38,922 nucleotides of DNA from positions 1 to 38,922 of the forward strand of contig JAJECK010000142.1 of the NCBI GenBank assembly GCA_022822085.1, written 5' to 3'. The notes below the pieces were generated by a model. That model ran no database searches. It was not told the DNA's origin and was given only the letters and a program-made list of their open reading frames with translations. Source of the stretch: Candidatus Poribacteria bacterium (GTDB lineage Bacteria > Poribacteria > WGA-4E > WGA-3G). Both the position numbers and the translations under genes were made by a program. Positions 32,799 through 38,639 of the stretch are shown piece by piece; positions within the stretch are counted from its first letter, which is position 1, and each line of letters opens with the position of its first letter.

Positions 32799-34196
32799 CT
32801 AAATTGGATTGCCCTGCATTGCATCGGGGATGTCAAGACCGAATTCTTTTAGCACTGTGGGGGCAATGTCGTATATGCTTTTTGTGCTCACAAGTCCATC
32901 TATTTGCTTATTGTCTTTGATGATAAATATGCCATTTTCAGCGTGGTTGCAATCGTCAGGACCGGTGTCGTTTTCGTCGGTGTAGATGCTGTTGTATCCG
33001 ACACTTCCCACTGAACGCCAATAGAGATCTCCGAAGTAGACGATTAAGTCAGGTGGTATATTGCGGCACTCTCGATATACCTTCTCTGGTTTAAATACGC
33101 GTGTCCTGATGTTCTGTCCCGATTCGTCAACTATGGCTTCAAGTTGTTCCTTTAATTCATCACGGACATTTTCATAATGTTCTGCTTGCACAATTCCGTG
33201 TGGTTCTCTTCCAATGACGTTGATAAAGATGCGACCGTAATATCCGCCTTCACCCCACGCTTTTGTTTGCTGCCAATCAACCATATCTGTTGTGAATCGG
33301 GTAATTCCGTGTGGTTCGGTTTTATGCGTGAGATAGCCGTGTTTTTGTAACCATTCGTTGACACAGATGCCACCCTCCATCCTTTTTGCTCCATGGTCGG
33401 AGACAATCATGACAGTGGTGTCATCATCAACATGCGACAACATCTCTCCGAGTTCGTCATCAAGCGTTCGATAGTAGTTTCGCATTGTGTCAGCAAAAGG
33501 TGAGTTCGGTTCATACTTCGGATGCGTTTTATCCCAATATCTCCAGAAAGCGTGATGGAGTCTGTCAGACCCCATTTCAACCATCATGAAGAAATCCCAC
33601 GGTTTTTTCTCAAGTAGATACCGAGCGAATTTGAAACGTGCGTGTGTCATTTTGAAGAGTTGCTGTTCCAATTCTGCACGTTTATCAGTACGGAAATTTG
33701 GTATATCAATCATATAGTTTGGTGAAATTTGTTGAATTTCACGGCTTAACCTTGTTGGGAATGTCCACTGTAGGTTTCGGTCTGCTGTAGGAGTATTGGG
33801 ATTAACTGGTGTGAGGAAACTGGTTACCATCCACCCTGGGAAGGGCTTAGCGGGATAAGTGAGTGGTACACCTAAGACGACCGAACGTTTCTGTTTTTGC
33901 CCGAGCAGTTCCCAGAGTGTCGGCGCGTTGATATCATGCGCGTTGGCAATGCTGAGTGCATTGTATGAGTAATCTGAACGGTTGCGAAATCCGTATATAC
34001 CGAGTTCACCTGGGTCACGGCTCGTCATCATGCACATCCAGGCAGGTACAGTGATAGGTGGGACCGTGCTATCTAATTGTCCATAGTTCCCTGCTTGCAT
34101 CAATCGGTGCGTGTTGGGCATGTCGTCTTTGAACGCGTCAAAGACCAGTTCGGGGGCGGCGCAGTCCCATCCGATAATCAGTACCCGTTTTTTCAT
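32799..34196 (-). CDS. Type I phosphodiesterase/nucleotide pyrophosphatase-like protein
   Basis: 465 residues of the alkaline phosphatase superfamily. The metal and nucleophile residues are visible: Asp11 (IIGWDCAAP), Thr49 (PPITVPAW) as nucleophile, the EMGSDRLHH block, and VSDHGAK with the two metal ligands. It cleaves phosphodiester or phosphate bonds; the substrate is unknown. It lies 9 bases downstream of the sulfatase stop on the same strand, so the two are co-transcribed and may act on the same sulfated or phosphorylated glycan or lipid. No signal peptide is visible, so it may act in the cytoplasm. Confidence 0.9.
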   Translation of the reverse strand: MKKRVLIIGWDCAAPELVFDAFKDDMPNTHRLMQAGNYGQLDSTVPPITVPAWMCMMTSRDPGELGIYGFRNRSDYSYNALSIANAHDINAPTLWELLGQKQKRSVVLGVPLTYPAKPFPGWMVTSFLTPVNPNTPTADRNLQWTFPTRLSREIQQISPNYMIDIPNFRTDKRAELEQQLFKMTHARFKFARYLLEKKPWDFFMMVEMGSDRLHHAFWRYWDKTHPKYEPNSPFADTMRNYYRTLDDELGEMLSHVDDDTTVMIVSDHGAKRMEGGICVNEWLQKHGYLTHKTEPHGITRFTTDMVDWQQTKAWGEGGYYGRIFINVIGREPHGIVQAEHYENVRDELKEQLEAIVDESGQNIRTRVFKPEKVYRECRNIPPDLIVYFGDLYWRSVGSVGYNSIYTDENDTGPDDCNHAENGIFIIKDNKQIDGLVSTKSIYDIAPTVLKEFGLDIPDAMQGNPI

Positions 34197-34205
34197 ATTT
34201 GCCCT

Positions 34206-35558
34206 TTATGCCCAACGCGGATTTCTTCCGCCAAATCGTTGTTCGCTGATGTTCCACAATTCTGTCAATCCGAGTTGTCGGATGTGGTCTAAACCTGCGA
34301 TGCATGGATCGTTAATTCGGGTTAACCATTGCTGGAGTTCTGTTTCTAATTCTTCCCGTAGTGTTTGTGAGTTAGGATCGTCAATCAGATTGTTCATTTG
34401 ATACGGGTCGTTATCATTGTCGTAGAGGAGCCACCCCGTTCCATCGTAGTGGCGTGCGTATGTATGGCGATGTGTTCGGACACCGCGCCATTCAGTGAGG
34501 CCGAAATTGAAACCTTCACTACCGTGCAATGGGAGTTCAAGTAGAACAGATTGCGGTTCTTCAATAGTTTTCCCGAGCATTGCATCTGACAGGTCAATGC
34601 CTTCTACACCGTCTGGGATTGATAGATCGCACAGAGATAGCATGGATGGCATAAAATCAACGAGACTTAATAGGGTATCACGGGTAACCCCAGTTGGGAT
34701 TTTGCGGGGATAGCGGACCATGAAAGGGATGCGACTGGATTCGTCCCATGGTCGTTCTTTTCTGTTGTGTCCGTGGCTGCCGAGCATGTCTCCGTGGTCA
34801 GATGTGTAGACAAGGATAGTGTCTTCGGCGATGCCAATTTCATCAAGTGCGTCCATCAATCTTCCGAGGTTTTCATCTAAAGCGGTGATATGTGCGTAGT
34901 ATCCAGCGATGTCCTTACGGTATGCGGGTGTGTCCACAGCATTTGGACGGAGTTGTATTTCGTTGGGTGGATACATCTCTTTGTATCGTTCGGGTACGTG
35001 TTCGTAAGGGTTGTGAGGTGGTCCCCAACTTACATAGAGACAGAAAGGTTCATCGGCATGGTCGCGACAGTATTGGATCGCCTGATCGGTTTGGAATTCG
35101 GGTTCGTATCCATCAATCTGCATTTTGTTTCCATCGGAGTCGTGATAGGGTGCGTTGAAATAGTTATGATGACAATTCCATCCGACCCAATGATCAAACC
35201 CGAACCGCATTTCAGGAGTGATAAACTTATCTCTCGGCTGACCACCGAGGTGCCATTTTCCGATATATCCTGTTGCATAACCGTCCTCTTTGAAGACTTG
35301 CGCAATGCCTGTTTCAGTCAACGGTAGTGGTAAATCGTTGGAAACGGCTTTGTGGCTGAGCGGGTGTTTGCCGGTCAGCAGGCATCCGCGCGCGGGCACA
35401 CATATTGGGACGTTGGTGAAGGTGTTGGGAAAAAACATTCCTTCCTCAGCGAGTTTATCCATGTAGGGTGTTTTTACTTGCGGGTTACCTGCACAACCGA
35501 CATCACATTGACGGTGTTGGTCGCCAAAAACGAAAATTAGGTTTGGTTTGCGTTTCAT
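34206..35558 (-). CDS. Formylglycine-dependent sulfatase
   Basis: A 450-residue arylsulfatase-type enzyme that removes sulfate esters. The formylglycine motif is C53-V-P-A-R57 followed by GCLLTGKHP. Metal ligands include Asp13 (FVFGDQH) and the later YTSDHGDMLGSHG. ATG 35558 was chosen because of GGAGGAATA just upstream and the normal MKRKPNLIFVFGDQ start; the open frame extends 52 codons further but lacks protein-like sequence. It is the middle gene of a FemAB-like/sulfatase/phosphodiesterase operon. The anaerobic or aerobic maturase is not in the window. The role in degrading sulfated host polysaccharides is inferred. Confidence 0.94.
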   Translation of the reverse strand: MKRKPNLIFVFGDQHRQCDVGCAGNPQVKTPYMDKLAEEGMFFPNTFTNVPICVPARGCLLTGKHPLSHKAVSNDLPLPLTETGIAQVFKEDGYATGYIGKWHLGGQPRDKFITPEMRFGFDHWVGWNCHHNYFNAPYHDSDGNKMQIDGYEPEFQTDQAIQYCRDHADEPFCLYVSWGPPHNPYEHVPERYKEMYPPNEIQLRPNAVDTPAYRKDIAGYYAHITALDENLGRLMDALDEIGIAEDTILVYTSDHGDMLGSHGHNRKERPWDESSRIPFMVRYPRKIPTGVTRDTLLSLVDFMPSMLSLCDLSIPDGVEGIDLSDAMLGKTIEEPQSVLLELPLHGSEGFNFGLTEWRGVRTHRHTYARHYDGTGWLLYDNDNDPYQMNNLIDDPNSQTLREELETELQQWLTRINDPCIAGLDHIRQLGLTELWNISEQRFGGRNPRWA

Positions 35559-35580
35559 TATTCCTCCTGTGTTTTTCTCA

Positions 35581-36690
35581 TTATTGTAGCCACGTATAAA
35601 TTCTCCGTAACGTTCCTTCACTATGTGTCCATATCGATTTTTTGAATGGTGAGATGGTTTTGGTATAACTATAGAAATCAGTACGTTTGGCACGATACTG
35701 CTCTTTGTGTGCAATCAATCCCGGACTTTCTGGCGGTGATGCCCCAAAGTCTACGCATTCATATCCATGTTCACATGCCCAAGTGATGATGTGATGAAAA
35801 ATGGCATTATTTGGACGGTATTGTAAATAATCAGGTAGTGAAGCCTCACACCATAGAGTGACAGTCTGGTTGTAATATAGATAAAGTAATCCAGCAATGA
35901 TTGATTCTTGATATTTAGCGATTGCAAGTTTAGCAATACCATTCTGTAGAAGCATCTTCATGAGTGTCTGTGGCTTCGGAGTGCCCCCTAAACGTTTCAG
36001 CGTCATAAGATACATGTCATAGAATGTAGATAGGTCTTCGTCTGAATCTGTATTGGTCACTTCCACACCCGATTTTTGTGCTTTACGGATTGCACCTCGG
36101 ACCCTTTTATTATAGGCGTTCCAAAGTGTGTCAATATCCGTATTGGTCTTTAATAGATGTGTGAACCTTTCCGTTCTTTCATATCCATATTCTGTTAGAC
36201 TATCACCGGACTTTGTGCTATCTGTCGGTGAAAGTGTCCAGTTAAGTTCACACCAACCTTTTTCTACTGAAAGCGTTTCAAGGTAGGTCTCAATCGTTGA
36301 GATTACATCTTTTGGATTGACTTGTGCTGAATCTATGATTTTTGGTCCTCCAAACAGATTCCACGGCATTGAATTCCACATGCGAATTCCCGGTATCGGG
36401 TGAAAGACAAACGCGGGTAATCCACCAAGGACCTTCTCATCTTGTTTGATCAACAGATAGACAGGATCCAACTGCTTGAAGGAGGCTGCAAGTGCATCAC
36501 GCCATGCCCCGCTCTGGAAAACGGTAGCATTTGAACATTGCTTGATAACGGAATCCCAATCGTCGCGATTTTGAGGTGTAAGGGGTGCTAAAGTGTACAC
36601 GAATATATTGTAGTTGAAATAGGACTTTTTGGCAAGTATGGGTTTTGGTTGGATACGTAAAGGTATAGTATAAAAATTAACACACCACAT
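35581..36690 (-). CDS. FemAB-like / GNAT-fold acyltransferase
   Basis: About 369 residues with a double GNAT-like fold of the FemAB/Acetyltransf_6 (BioF2-like) group. Features are TVFQSGAWRDALAASF near the start, a RGAIRKAQKSGVEV segment in the middle, and the C-terminal YYNQTVTLWCEA..YLQYRPNNAIFHHIITWACEHGYECVDFG typical of the family. Such enzymes transfer amino acids or acyl groups to peptidoglycan or sugar substrates. The start is uncertain: ATG 36690 has no Shine-Dalgarno sequence, and TTG 36717 and an internal GTG near 36603 are alternatives. Residues before about 40 look non-conserved. It begins the operon with the sulfatase, 22 bases away. Confidence 0.8.
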   Translation of the reverse strand: MWCVNFYTIPLRIQPKPILAKKSYFNYNIFVYTLAPLTPQNRDDWDSVIKQCSNATVFQSGAWRDALAASFKQLDPVYLLIKQDEKVLGGLPAFVFHPIPGIRMWNSMPWNLFGGPKIIDSAQVNPKDVISTIETYLETLSVEKGWCELNWTLSPTDSTKSGDSLTEYGYERTERFTHLLKTNTDIDTLWNAYNKRVRGAIRKAQKSGVEVTNTDSDEDLSTFYDMYLMTLKRLGGTPKPQTLMKMLLQNGIAKLAIAKYQESIIAGLLYLYYNQTVTLWCEASLPDYLQYRPNNAIFHHIITWACEHGYECVDFGASPPESPGLIAHKEQYRAKRTDFYSYTKTISPFKKSIWTHSEGTLRRIYTWLQ

Positions 36691-36702
36691 ATTGATTTTA
36701 AT

Positions 36703-36731
36703 TTGAAATATATTCAAAAAGATGGTATAAT
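36703..36731 (+). promoter_or_regulatory. Near-consensus promoter for the Y RNA / rsr unit
   Basis: TTGAAA (36703-36708), a 17-base spacer and TATAAT (36726-36731) on the plus strand, the best sigma-70-like site seen in the window. Transcription should start near 36738. The site lies inside or at the start of the diverging FemAB-like gene. Confidence 0.7.
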
Positions 36732-36782
36732 ATATCTGCTTGAGTCGTTTTCATCAGAAATCTCCTGTTGTAAAACATCTTA

Positions 36783-36904
36783 CTCTGGGTCGATCGAATG
36801 CGTTATCTCAGGTCGCAGGTTCGACTCCTGCCGGTAGGTAGAATGTAATGTGAAACCTACTGTAGCTCAGCGGTAGAGCGATGTATTCCGCTTCTTATCC
36901 AGAG
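36783..36904 (+). ncRNA. Bacterial Y RNA with tRNA-like module (YrlA type)
   Basis: The ends pair (36783-36790 with 36897-36904, eight pairs). An internal loop follows, then a six-pair helix (36796-36801 with 36883-36888) and three pairs (36805-36807 with 36880-36882) next to a bulge GTT. The head mimics a tRNA in permuted order: a T arm with GCAGG-TTCGACT-CCTGC (36815-36831); a seven-pair acceptor stem (36832-36838 with 36856-36862) closed by 17 bases instead of having free ends; then TA and a D arm GCTC-AGCGGTA-GAGC (36865-36879). Bacterial Y RNAs bound by Rsr/Ro60 are known to have an end-paired stem plus a tRNA-like module, and rsr begins 92 bases downstream on the same strand. No anticodon arm of normal form exists, so this is not a tRNA gene. 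The mature ends are not known. Confidence 0.82.
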
Positions 36905-36912
36905 ATTCTTTG

Positions 36913-36975
36913 TGCGGGCCGAAGTATTGCGTTAACACTTGAACTGTCCCGCAATACACTCCTTGCCCGCATTTT
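36913..36975 (+). terminator. Hairpin with T run between the Y RNA and rsr
   Basis: Outer stem TGCGGGC/GCCCGCA (36913-36919 with 36965-36971) and inner stem GTATTGCG/CGCAATAC (36924-36931 with 36950-36957), followed by TTTT (36972-36975). It could end the Y RNA transcript, with partial read-through into rsr whose ATG is 20 bases later. It could also be a second structured part of the RNA or a control element of rsr translation. Confidence 0.55.
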
Positions 36976-36995
36976 CATCAACGTCGGTGATTACC

Positions 36996-38639
36996 ATGAG
37001 TTATTTACGTAAATATGCCCCACTGCATCCACACCAACGTCAACCTTTAGACGAAAAGCAGATTGAGAATTCTGCTGGTGGATACGTTTATCCTGTTTCT
37101 ATTTGGACAAACCTTGATAGGTTCCTAATCTTGGGAACTGAAGGTGGTTCTCATTACGCTCAGGAACAGGATTTGACTAAGGAGAATGTAGACTCTGTTC
37201 TGAAGTGTATTGCAGAGGATGGTGTTCAGGTAGTTGAACGAATTCGTGAGATTTCTGTTTCTGGTCGTGCACCGAAGAATGATCCCGCATTATATGCGAT
37301 GGCACTTGCTTTCACTCACGGGAACGCTGACACGAAGCGGAAGGTGCAAGAGGTGTTCTGTGATGTTGCACGTATCGGAACGCATCTCTTCAGTTTCGTT
37401 GCGTTTGTTGATGGTATGCGTGGGTGGGGTAGGTCACTACGACGGTTAGTTGGCGATTGGTATCGGACGAAAGATGATGAGGCATTGGCATATCAAGTGT
37501 TGAAGTATCAGTCCCGTAGCAAATGGCGACATGCTGATGTTCTTGCGAAATGCCATTATGGTGAGAACCGGGGTATCTATCGTTGGATGAAAGGACTTGG
37601 TCCTGAAGAACGGACTGTTCAACGGACAAGAGATGATGGAACACAGTTATCTACTACTTACGATGCAACAGATGCTTTGCCTAAATTGCTTGCCGGTTAT
37701 GAAGAGCTGAAACAAACAAAGAAACTCGCGGATGTTATCAGATTGATTGTAACACATGAATTTACACACGAAATGGTGCCGAATGAATGGAAGGATGATG
37801 TAGAAGTTTGGGCAGCATTATTAGAAAATATGCCAGTGATGGCAACAGTGCGAAATTTGGGTAAGATGACTCAGGTTGGGTTAATTAAACCTTTTGCATC
37901 AGCGGTGCAGACTGTGTTGGAAAGACTTTCATCGGATGCTATCAAACGTTCGCTTATACATCCTATTCAGATTCTGATGGCATTGATTACATATAGGTCT
38001 GGCAAGGGTGTTAGAGGTAGTTTGACGTGGGAACCTGTTCCACAGATTGTTGATGCGTTGGATGCTGCATTCTACATGGCATTTGACAACGTTGAACCGA
38101 GTGGAAAGAACACACTTTTGGCACTTGATGTTTCCGGTTCAATGGGGTCTGGCACTGTTGCTGGGTGTCAGGGACTTACTCCGCGGAATGCTTCTGCTGC
38201 AATGGCACTGGTAACTGCCCGAACAGAACCGAATTACCATATTTTTGGATTTTCAGAGAATTTTGTACGGCTGCCAATTACTGCAACAGATAGGTTAGCG
38301 AGTGCTGTTGATGCAGTTTCTAATATACCGATGGGAAAGACCGATTGCTCACTTCCTATGTTATATGCCCTGAAAAATAGACTTGAGGTGGACGTGTTCA
38401 TTATCTATACGGATAATGAAACGTGGTTTGGCGACATTCATCCGAAAACTGCATTGGATATGTATCGGGAAGAGATGAAGAGACCCTCCAAATGTGCCGT
38501 TGTTGCGATGGTAGCAAACAAGTTTTCTATTGCTGATCCGACTGATGCGGGTATGTTGGATTTTATCGGTTTTGATACCGCGACACCTGCTGTGTTGAGC
38601 GATTTCGTCAGAGATGCTGATATTTCTGATACTGTCTGA
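36996..38639 (+). CDS. rsr: Ro60-family RNA-binding protein (TROVE domain)
   Basis: 547 residues. The TROVE domain (about 1-350, starting MSYLRKYAPLHPHQRQPLDE) is a HEAT-like ring that binds Y RNAs and misfolded RNAs through its central hole. The C-terminal vWA domain has an intact MIDAS: Asp378-Val-Ser380-Gly-Ser382 in LLALDVSGSM, and later FIIYTDNETWFG. Bacterial Rsr works with exonucleases such as PNPase in RNA quality control and stress recovery. I chose ATG 36996, with GGTGA five bases upstream and the usual N-terminus; an upstream TTG frame runs through the hairpin. The adjacent Y RNA supports the assignment. Confidence 0.95.
   Translation: MSYLRKYAPLHPHQRQPLDEKQIENSAGGYVYPVSIWTNLDRFLILGTEGGSHYAQEQDLTKENVDSVLKCIAEDGVQVVERIREISVSGRAPKNDPALYAMALAFTHGNADTKRKVQEVFCDVARIGTHLFSFVAFVDGMRGWGRSLRRLVGDWYRTKDDEALAYQVLKYQSRSKWRHADVLAKCHYGENRGIYRWMKGLGPEERTVQRTRDDGTQLSTTYDATDALPKLLAGYEELKQTKKLADVIRLIVTHEFTHEMVPNEWKDDVEVWAALLENMPVMATVRNLGKMTQVGLIKPFASAVQTVLERLSSDAIKRSLIHPIQILMALITYRSGKGVRGSLTWEPVPQIVDALDAAFYMAFDNVEPSGKNTLLALDVSGSMGSGTVAGCQGLTPRNASAAMALVTARTEPNYHIFGFSENFVRLPITATDRLASAVDAVSNIPMGKTDCSLPMLYALKNRLEVDVFIIYTDNETWFGDIHPKTALDMYREEMKRPSKCAVVAMVANKFSIADPTDAGMLDFIGFDTATPAVLSDFVRDADISDTV

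Follow-up and report, generated by a model that had tools for sequence, protein, structure and literature searches.

The Y RNAs bound by Ro60 present a recognition site that comprises a lower helix, a single bulged cytosine and a larger bulge on the opposite strand (PMC4726728). In the bacterial systems that have been studied, an RNA of the YrlA type tethers Rsr to PNPase and serves as a substrate for DusA and TruB (PMC8394870); in Salmonella, two adjacent Y RNA genes occupy an rsr-yrlBA-rtcBA operon, with YrlA encoded between rsr and rtcBA (PMC7790460). According to one review, the Deinococcus radiodurans Y RNA has no upper stem of the vertebrate kind, and bacterial Y RNAs are not homologous with vertebrate ones (PMC4726728). 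UUAUC and UG-CA elements, by comparison, have been described for both stem-bulge RNAs (sbRNAs) and vertebrate Y RNAs (PMC4450293, PMC4726728).

Here we analyse the region upstream of an rsr gene in a member of Candidatus Poribacteria; a literature search, with the primary papers on bacterial Y RNAs outside its scope, returned no paper joining Poribacteria and Y RNA. Judged from sequence comparison, positions 36783-36970 very probably constitute a two-module Y RNA unit, in which a YrlA-type Y RNA (M1) is followed by a mini-Y RNA (M2). A preliminary description of this DNA had recognized the first of these modules.

Results

An rsr gene preceded by structured RNA

The window, by which we mean the whole stretch of 38,922 nucleotides analysed here, is a single contig (G000:C154) of the 5.6 Mb draft genome of a sponge-associated Poribacterium. 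Its rsr product matches the entries 1yvp (E 2e-122) and 2nvo (E 4.5e-120) and is homologous to Xenopus Ro60 and Deinococcus Rsr over almost its full length; relatives of the gene at 72-89% identity all come from Candidatus Poribacteria. One-to-one alignment with Xenopus Ro60 shows that K170, R174 and H187 are kept, at positions which we take to be Y-RNA contacts in the Xenopus protein. A complete PNPase gene is encoded in the same genome. Upstream, on the minus strand (32799-36717), lie two sulfatase/phosphodiesterase-type genes and a FemAB-like acetyltransferase gene, the 5' end of which adjoins the putative Y RNA promoter. The features of the locus are listed in Table 1.

Table 1. Features predicted in and around the Y RNA unit of the window.
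Feature	Position	Strand	Evidence or remark
Sigma-70-type promoter, TTGAAA-17-TATAAT	36703..36731	+	11/12 consensus matches
Short 5' leader hairpin ahead of the Y RNA	36738..36782	+	fold; absent where the -10 box of relatives abuts the Y RNA
M1, YrlA-type Y RNA	36783..36904	+	RF02553 full-length, 31.4 bits; covariation; R1 133.6 bits (window in training set)
M1 basal helix	36783..36790 (CUCUGGGU) with 36897-36904 (AUCCAGAG)	+	U-A to C-G change at the fourth pair
M1 Rsr/Ro60-type site	bulged C 36791; GA 36792-36793 opposite UU 36895-36896	+	R2 match
M1 second helix	36796..36802 (GAAUGCG) with 36882-36888 (UGUAUUC)	+	changes on both sides in 3/7 pairs
T arm, GCAGG-TTCGACT-CCTGC	36815..36831	+	G-C to A-U compensatory change in 5 copies at one T-stem pair
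Acceptor-type stem, 8 pairs	36832..36862 (36832-36839 with 36855-36862, 15-nt loop)	+	changes on both sides in 7/8 pairs
U8-A9 equivalent and D arm, GCTC-AGCGGTA-GAGC	36863..36879	+	loop retains A14 and G18-G19 equivalents
M1-M2 linker, 9 nt	36905..36913	+	8-10 nt in 18/18 poribacterial units
M2, mini-Y RNA without tRNA-like module	36914..36970	+	GCGGGC-C-GA-A-GUAUUGC...GCAAUAC-ACUCC-UU-GCCCGC
GGTGA, likely rsr ribosome-binding site	36986..36990	+	~15 nt 3' of M2; GGTG/GGGA-type sequence in most relatives
rsr, Ro60 orthologue	36996..38639	+	TROVE and Ro60 vWA domains; PF25045 214.8 bits, PF05731 120.3 bits

M1 is a predicted YrlA-type Y RNA

The tRNA-like part of M1 runs from a T arm through a loop-capped, acceptor-like stem to a D arm. 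As the preliminary description had it, a complete T arm (36815-36831) precedes a complete D arm (36865-36879 for the arm itself), and the ends of the RNA pair in a bulged helix, here 36783-36793 with 36895-36904, followed by 36796-36802 with 36882-36888. The loop-closed acceptor stem was likewise found, with eight pairs in place of the seven originally counted.

Fourteen genomes of the genus bear rsr, our own included, and in every one of them the element, single or in two copies, immediately precedes that gene. Comparison of these upstream regions, which had been proposed as a check on the structure, revealed compensatory changes: across 18 copies, 13 of the 34 pairs in M1 are altered on both sides, a count that none of 500 shuffles reached. 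Cells of the alignment pair in 96.7% of cases over the 18 copies, versus 38-48% when the partners are slid. For the bulged end helix taken by itself the figure is 96%, with one compensatory change; the A-U pair beside the bulged C is lost in 7 of the 18 copies.

The covariance-model search suggested earlier gave a divided answer. The Rfam model for YrlA, RF02553, spans 36786-36912 end to end, yet at 31.4 bits (E 4e-5 for the stretch) the match lies below the family cut-off of 69 bits, a value that 29 other rsr loci which we scanned likewise fail to reach; the cut-off is not a structural definition. Since tandem tRNA genes in the same genome score equally well (31.1 bits), the RF02553 match taken by itself is unspecific and constitutes weak evidence; the decisive support comes from comparison among genomes.

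We note separately the results of R1, a covariance model built on poribacterial M1 copies (the window among them) and run over whole genomes. Matches of 96-134 bits, values that are partly a product of construction because R1 and the model R2 described below were both trained on poribacterial sequences, occur in the 14 rsr-bearing genomes of the genus only and always upstream of rsr. The next-best match, at 59 bits, again lies beside rsr, in a class-level relative (G050), and genomes lacking rsr yielded nothing above 41 bits, the three loci inspected at or below that score being tandem tRNAs. In other phyla, including Verrucomicrobiota, Armatimonadota and Chloroflexi, R1 detects YrlA-like RNAs at rsr loci, with scores of up to 78 bits and invariably on the rsr strand. 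Taken together, covariation, the full-length RF02553 match, strict co-occurrence with rsr within the genus and the R1 matches in other phyla support the original proposal of a Y RNA of the YrlA type immediately preceding rsr, which we place at 36783-36904.

M1 shares with the YrlA family (RF02553; Salmonella, Mycobacterium) a basal Rsr-binding-type stem that encloses a T arm, a capped acceptor-like stem and a D arm, as well as linkage to rsr (PMC8394870). It differs in scoring below the Rfam cut-off (31.4 of 69 bits), in having a mini-Y module 8-10 nt downstream, and in its location upstream of rsr, as opposed to the position of Salmonella YrlA between rsr and rtcBA (PMC7790460).

M2 is a probable mini-Y RNA with a second site of predicted Rsr-binding type

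The preliminary description had treated 36914-36970 as a T-tailed hairpin. A very stable hairpin is indeed present (folding z = -4.6), with pairing in 99.3% of cells, compensatory changes at three pairs and an internal loop whose sequence is conserved among relatives; the T tail did not hold up as a conserved terminator, in that the tail reads ATTTTC and most relatives lack a T-run. The earlier account was also incomplete, as inspection of the hairpin revealed the arrangement described for Ro60 sites (GCGGGC-C-GA-A / ACUCC-UU-GCCCGC). The bulged C is kept in 17 of 18 aligned copies and is replaced by A in the remaining one (L023b).

Two further models bear on this assignment. In other phyla, R2, which was trained on poribacterial M2 hairpins alone, aligns to YrlA RNAs along their basal stems and accommodates the tRNA-like part as a loop insertion; it also matches the basal helix of M1 itself (36785-36902; 12.3 bits, E 0.006). 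Across 60 genomes its matches fall solely beside rsr, in 11 relatives and our own genome, with none in the rsr-lacking genomes among the 60. R3, built from mini-hairpins of other phyla with no Poribacteria in training, finds M2 at exactly 36914-36970 (39.2 bits, E 1e-5 over 0.47 Mb). At rsr loci, 86 of 87 R3 matches lie on the rsr strand, and across 85 genomes of the phylum the model detects this element only. We conclude that 36914-36970 is most probably a mini-Y RNA, a second module of predicted Rsr-binding type.

Two relatives depart from the pattern. One (L029) has M1 and no recognisable M2; where M2 would be, at L029:2863-3000, there is a different long imperfect hairpin. In the other (G012, locus L031), rsr appears broken, M2 has a degenerate lower stem and the tRNA-like module of M1 is doubled, such that a single Rsr-type basal helix surrounds two tandem tRNA-like modules (L031:2718-2913). 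The joint occurrence of a broken rsr and a degenerate M2 stem would fit a dependence of M2 on Rsr, with draft-assembly errors as a possible source of either.

The two modules form a unit that recurs at rsr loci

Six genomes carry the M1-M2 pair twice, as a duplicated block, and in one of them (L025) the two subtypes stand in reversed order. An identical order of Y RNA, linker, mini-Y and rsr, with linkers of 9-12 nt, is found in Verrucomicrobiota (L035, L081, L041, L043); multi-module Y arrays with 7-9 nt linkers occur at L036, L037, L043 and L045. The Salmonella yrlB-yrlA pair resembles M1-M2 in consisting of two adjacent Y RNA genes at an rsr locus (PMC7790460) and differs from it in order and in the fixed linker of M1-M2, a comparison made by gene order.

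Some loci show additional variation. At L027:2877-3000 and L022:2406-2573, Y RNA modules are separated from one another, or M2 from rsr, by insertions with GGAGGGAACTCCGATTCC-type inverted repeats. At L058:2716-2821, an Rsr-type stem surrounds a T arm and a capped stem, apparently without a D arm; this RNA is a possible intermediate between YrlA and mini-Y.

A putative sigma-70-type promoter precedes the unit

The TTGAAA-17-TATAAT promoter claimed at the outset is present at 36703-36731, and sites scoring 11-12 of 12 precede the first unit in 11 of the 14 related genomes. The start of the RNA had been placed at 36738, which comparison with relatives does not bear out: the Y RNA proper begins at about 36783, and in three relatives (L020, L022, L023) it begins 8-9 nt after the end of the -10 box. 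The distance from M2 to the rsr start codon is 15-26 nt in most genomes, about 25 nt in the window and 124 nt in L027. Because this gap is usually so short, rsr is probably co-transcribed with the Y RNA unit, and we infer that the unit is transcribed from its own sigma-70-type promoter, with transcription probably continuing into rsr, and that the modules are then processed from the transcript.

Alternative readings of the two modules

The succession of T arm, acceptor strand, loop, acceptor strand and D arm in M1 is also that of a permuted tRNA, and M1 might accordingly be a circularly permuted gene from which a functional tRNA matures by processing. The outer ends of M1, however, form an Rsr-type bulged helix and leave no anticodon arm; ARAGORN reports no tRNA at M1, and the element co-occurs with rsr and has matches at rsr loci across phyla. 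We reject this reading for want of an anticodon arm and consider it extremely improbable, in agreement with the preference for a Y RNA expressed in the preliminary description. A decayed tandem tRNA pair, of which M1 would retain the T arm of the first gene and the D arm of the second, draws on the scores of tandem tRNA junctions, 28-41 bits for R1 and 31 bits for RF02553. Against it, the acceptor halves of M1 form a helix together, in which 7 of 8 pairs covary; M1 scores 96-134 bits with R1, and its conservation as a unit is confined to genomes with rsr. The covariation of the acceptor halves refutes a tandem tRNA remnant as the present state of M1, a reading to which we give almost no credence, although a tandem tRNA pair is possible as the evolutionary origin of M1. 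Junctions of this kind account for several matches that were discarded: the second RF02553 match in our own genome (G000:C115) is a tRNA-Thr/tRNA-Gly junction, and tandem tRNA-Asn pairs explain the 41-bit R1 matches in G019 and G022; none of these was counted as a Y RNA.

For M2, the strength of the hairpin, the ATTTTC that follows it in the window and a T7 run in L027 could point to an intrinsic terminator of the Y RNA transcript, with a separate promoter serving rsr. We reject a conserved terminator because the tail in the window is just ATTTTC and the T-run is missing after M2 in most relatives. The internal loop sequence is moreover conserved, a terminator scan found no plus-strand terminator at M2, and the roughly 25 nt between hairpin and ATG leave no room for a promoter, the sole promoter-like site nearby (36932-36960, 9/12) lying inside M2 itself; the terminator reading is thus very unlikely. 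A better case can be made for M2 as a cis-acting element of the rsr mRNA, whereby Rsr would bind a hairpin in its own leader and repress translation, leaving M1 as the sole functional Y RNA. In most genomes 15-26 nt lie between the end of M2 and the rsr ATG, many Verrucomicrobiota have a comparable mini-Y as the final element ahead of rsr, and the site is of predicted Rsr-binding type. Yet in genomes with two units an M2 also follows the first M1, distant from rsr; mini-Y matches occur downstream of rsr, outside any leader, at L079, L042, L083, L057 and L075; and in L027, 124 nt separate M2 from the ATG. We regard an exclusively cis-acting M2 as unlikely, though worth serious consideration, and a leader role could be compatible with a Y RNA role of the same module.

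Some mini-Y RNAs resemble animal stem-bulge RNAs

We compared the mini-Y hairpins with the Y RNA families of animals. Among 29 rsr loci from other phyla, six (L045, L079, L039, L032, L035, L043) have mini-Ys that score above the cut-off of 38 bits of RF01656, the nematode stem-bulge RNA family, with values of 39.4-44.9 bits. These six share with nematode sbRNAs and vertebrate Y RNAs a lower stem with a bulged C and a GC-clamped upper stem with UG-CA, together with GGUUAUC at the start of the loop and CAACUUG on the 3' strand. In 12 whole bacterial genomes, RF01656 gave ten matches, one per genome, of which nine are the mini-Y beside rsr; fourteen control genomes gave none. The tenth match, L096:2734-2800 (G063:C4), comes from the genome of L037, where it is part of a second Y-Y-miniY locus with the same module order; that locus ends at the contig end, before any rsr is visible.

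M2 of the window matches none of the nematode and vertebrate Y RNA families, RF01656 included. It differs from RF01656 in having GUUAAC (UUAAC) for GUUAUC (UUAUC) and an upper stem one pair shorter, and its loop is far smaller than that of the animal RNAs; the link between the window and the sbRNAs thus runs via R3 only. The likeness of the mini-Ys to sbRNAs could reflect either common descent or convergence on one protein surface. We tentatively raise, as a possibility that we rate below even, that the mini-Y beside rsr, with 36914-36970 as a diverged member, is a bacterial homologue of the animal Y and stem-bulge RNAs. The lower Ro60 site, the UG-CA upper stem and the UUAUC motif would then already be bacterial, in polycistronic arrays with linkers of about 9 nt; animals would have received Ro60 and its RNA together, the motifs would predate the DNA-replication role credited to them in animals, and the tRNA-like version may have come from a tandem tRNA junction.

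tRNA genes around rsr in other phyla

In other phyla, tRNA arrays flank rsr together with its Y RNAs. Across 52 loci (328 kb), 150 tRNAs lie on the rsr strand versus 6 on the opposite one, and at least three tRNAs occur at 19 of the 52 loci, with 20 at L070; loci with such arrays include L070, L036, L037, L043, L045, L077, L032, L050, L048, L052 and L073. No tRNA array was found at the poribacterial rsr loci. The arrays suggest that rsr islands are tied to tRNA replacement or repair. Tandem tRNA junctions (L085 1221-1366, L086 1166-1309, L002) score 28-41 bits with YrlA-type models, and the permuted tRNA-like module could have been born as such a junction.

Discussion

In the arrangement that we propose, the ends of M1 would form an Rsr-binding bulged helix around a middle part that would act as a circularly permuted tRNA mimic, and each module would most likely load one Rsr ring. 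By analogy with the RYPER particle of Deinococcus radiodurans, in which the Y RNA tethers Rsr to PNPase (PMC4726728, PMC8394870), and with the window protein being homologous to 2nvo, M1 would tether Rsr to PNPase and gate its substrates. M2 has the same predicted site and no tether, and so could occupy and load, or gate and block, an Rsr ring while PNPase is not recruited. Because M2 adjoins the ribosome-binding site and start codon, feedback on rsr is permitted as well, and M2 may couple the level of Rsr to rsr translation.

With M1, the known YrlA family gains a member from a lineage new to it. What look like new features are the two-module unit with its fixed linker and the sbRNA-like mini-Y, although the Salmonella yrlB-yrlA pair may represent the same idea. 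Bacterial Y RNAs have been nearly invisible to annotation, with the Rfam YrlA cut-off reached at none of 30 rsr stretches (the window and 29 loci); the models R1-R3 recover Y RNAs at rsr loci across phyla, and Poribacteria supply 18 covarying copies of the full locus of promoter, YrlA-type RNA, mini-Y and rsr. The rsr-adjacent mini-Ys that exceed the nematode sbRNA cut-off, usually as the sole match in their genome, make the published statement that bacterial and vertebrate Y RNAs are not homologous (PMC4726728) open to test. Since M2 lacks the tRNA-like tether, the tethering and gating roles of a Y RNA should be separable by experiment.
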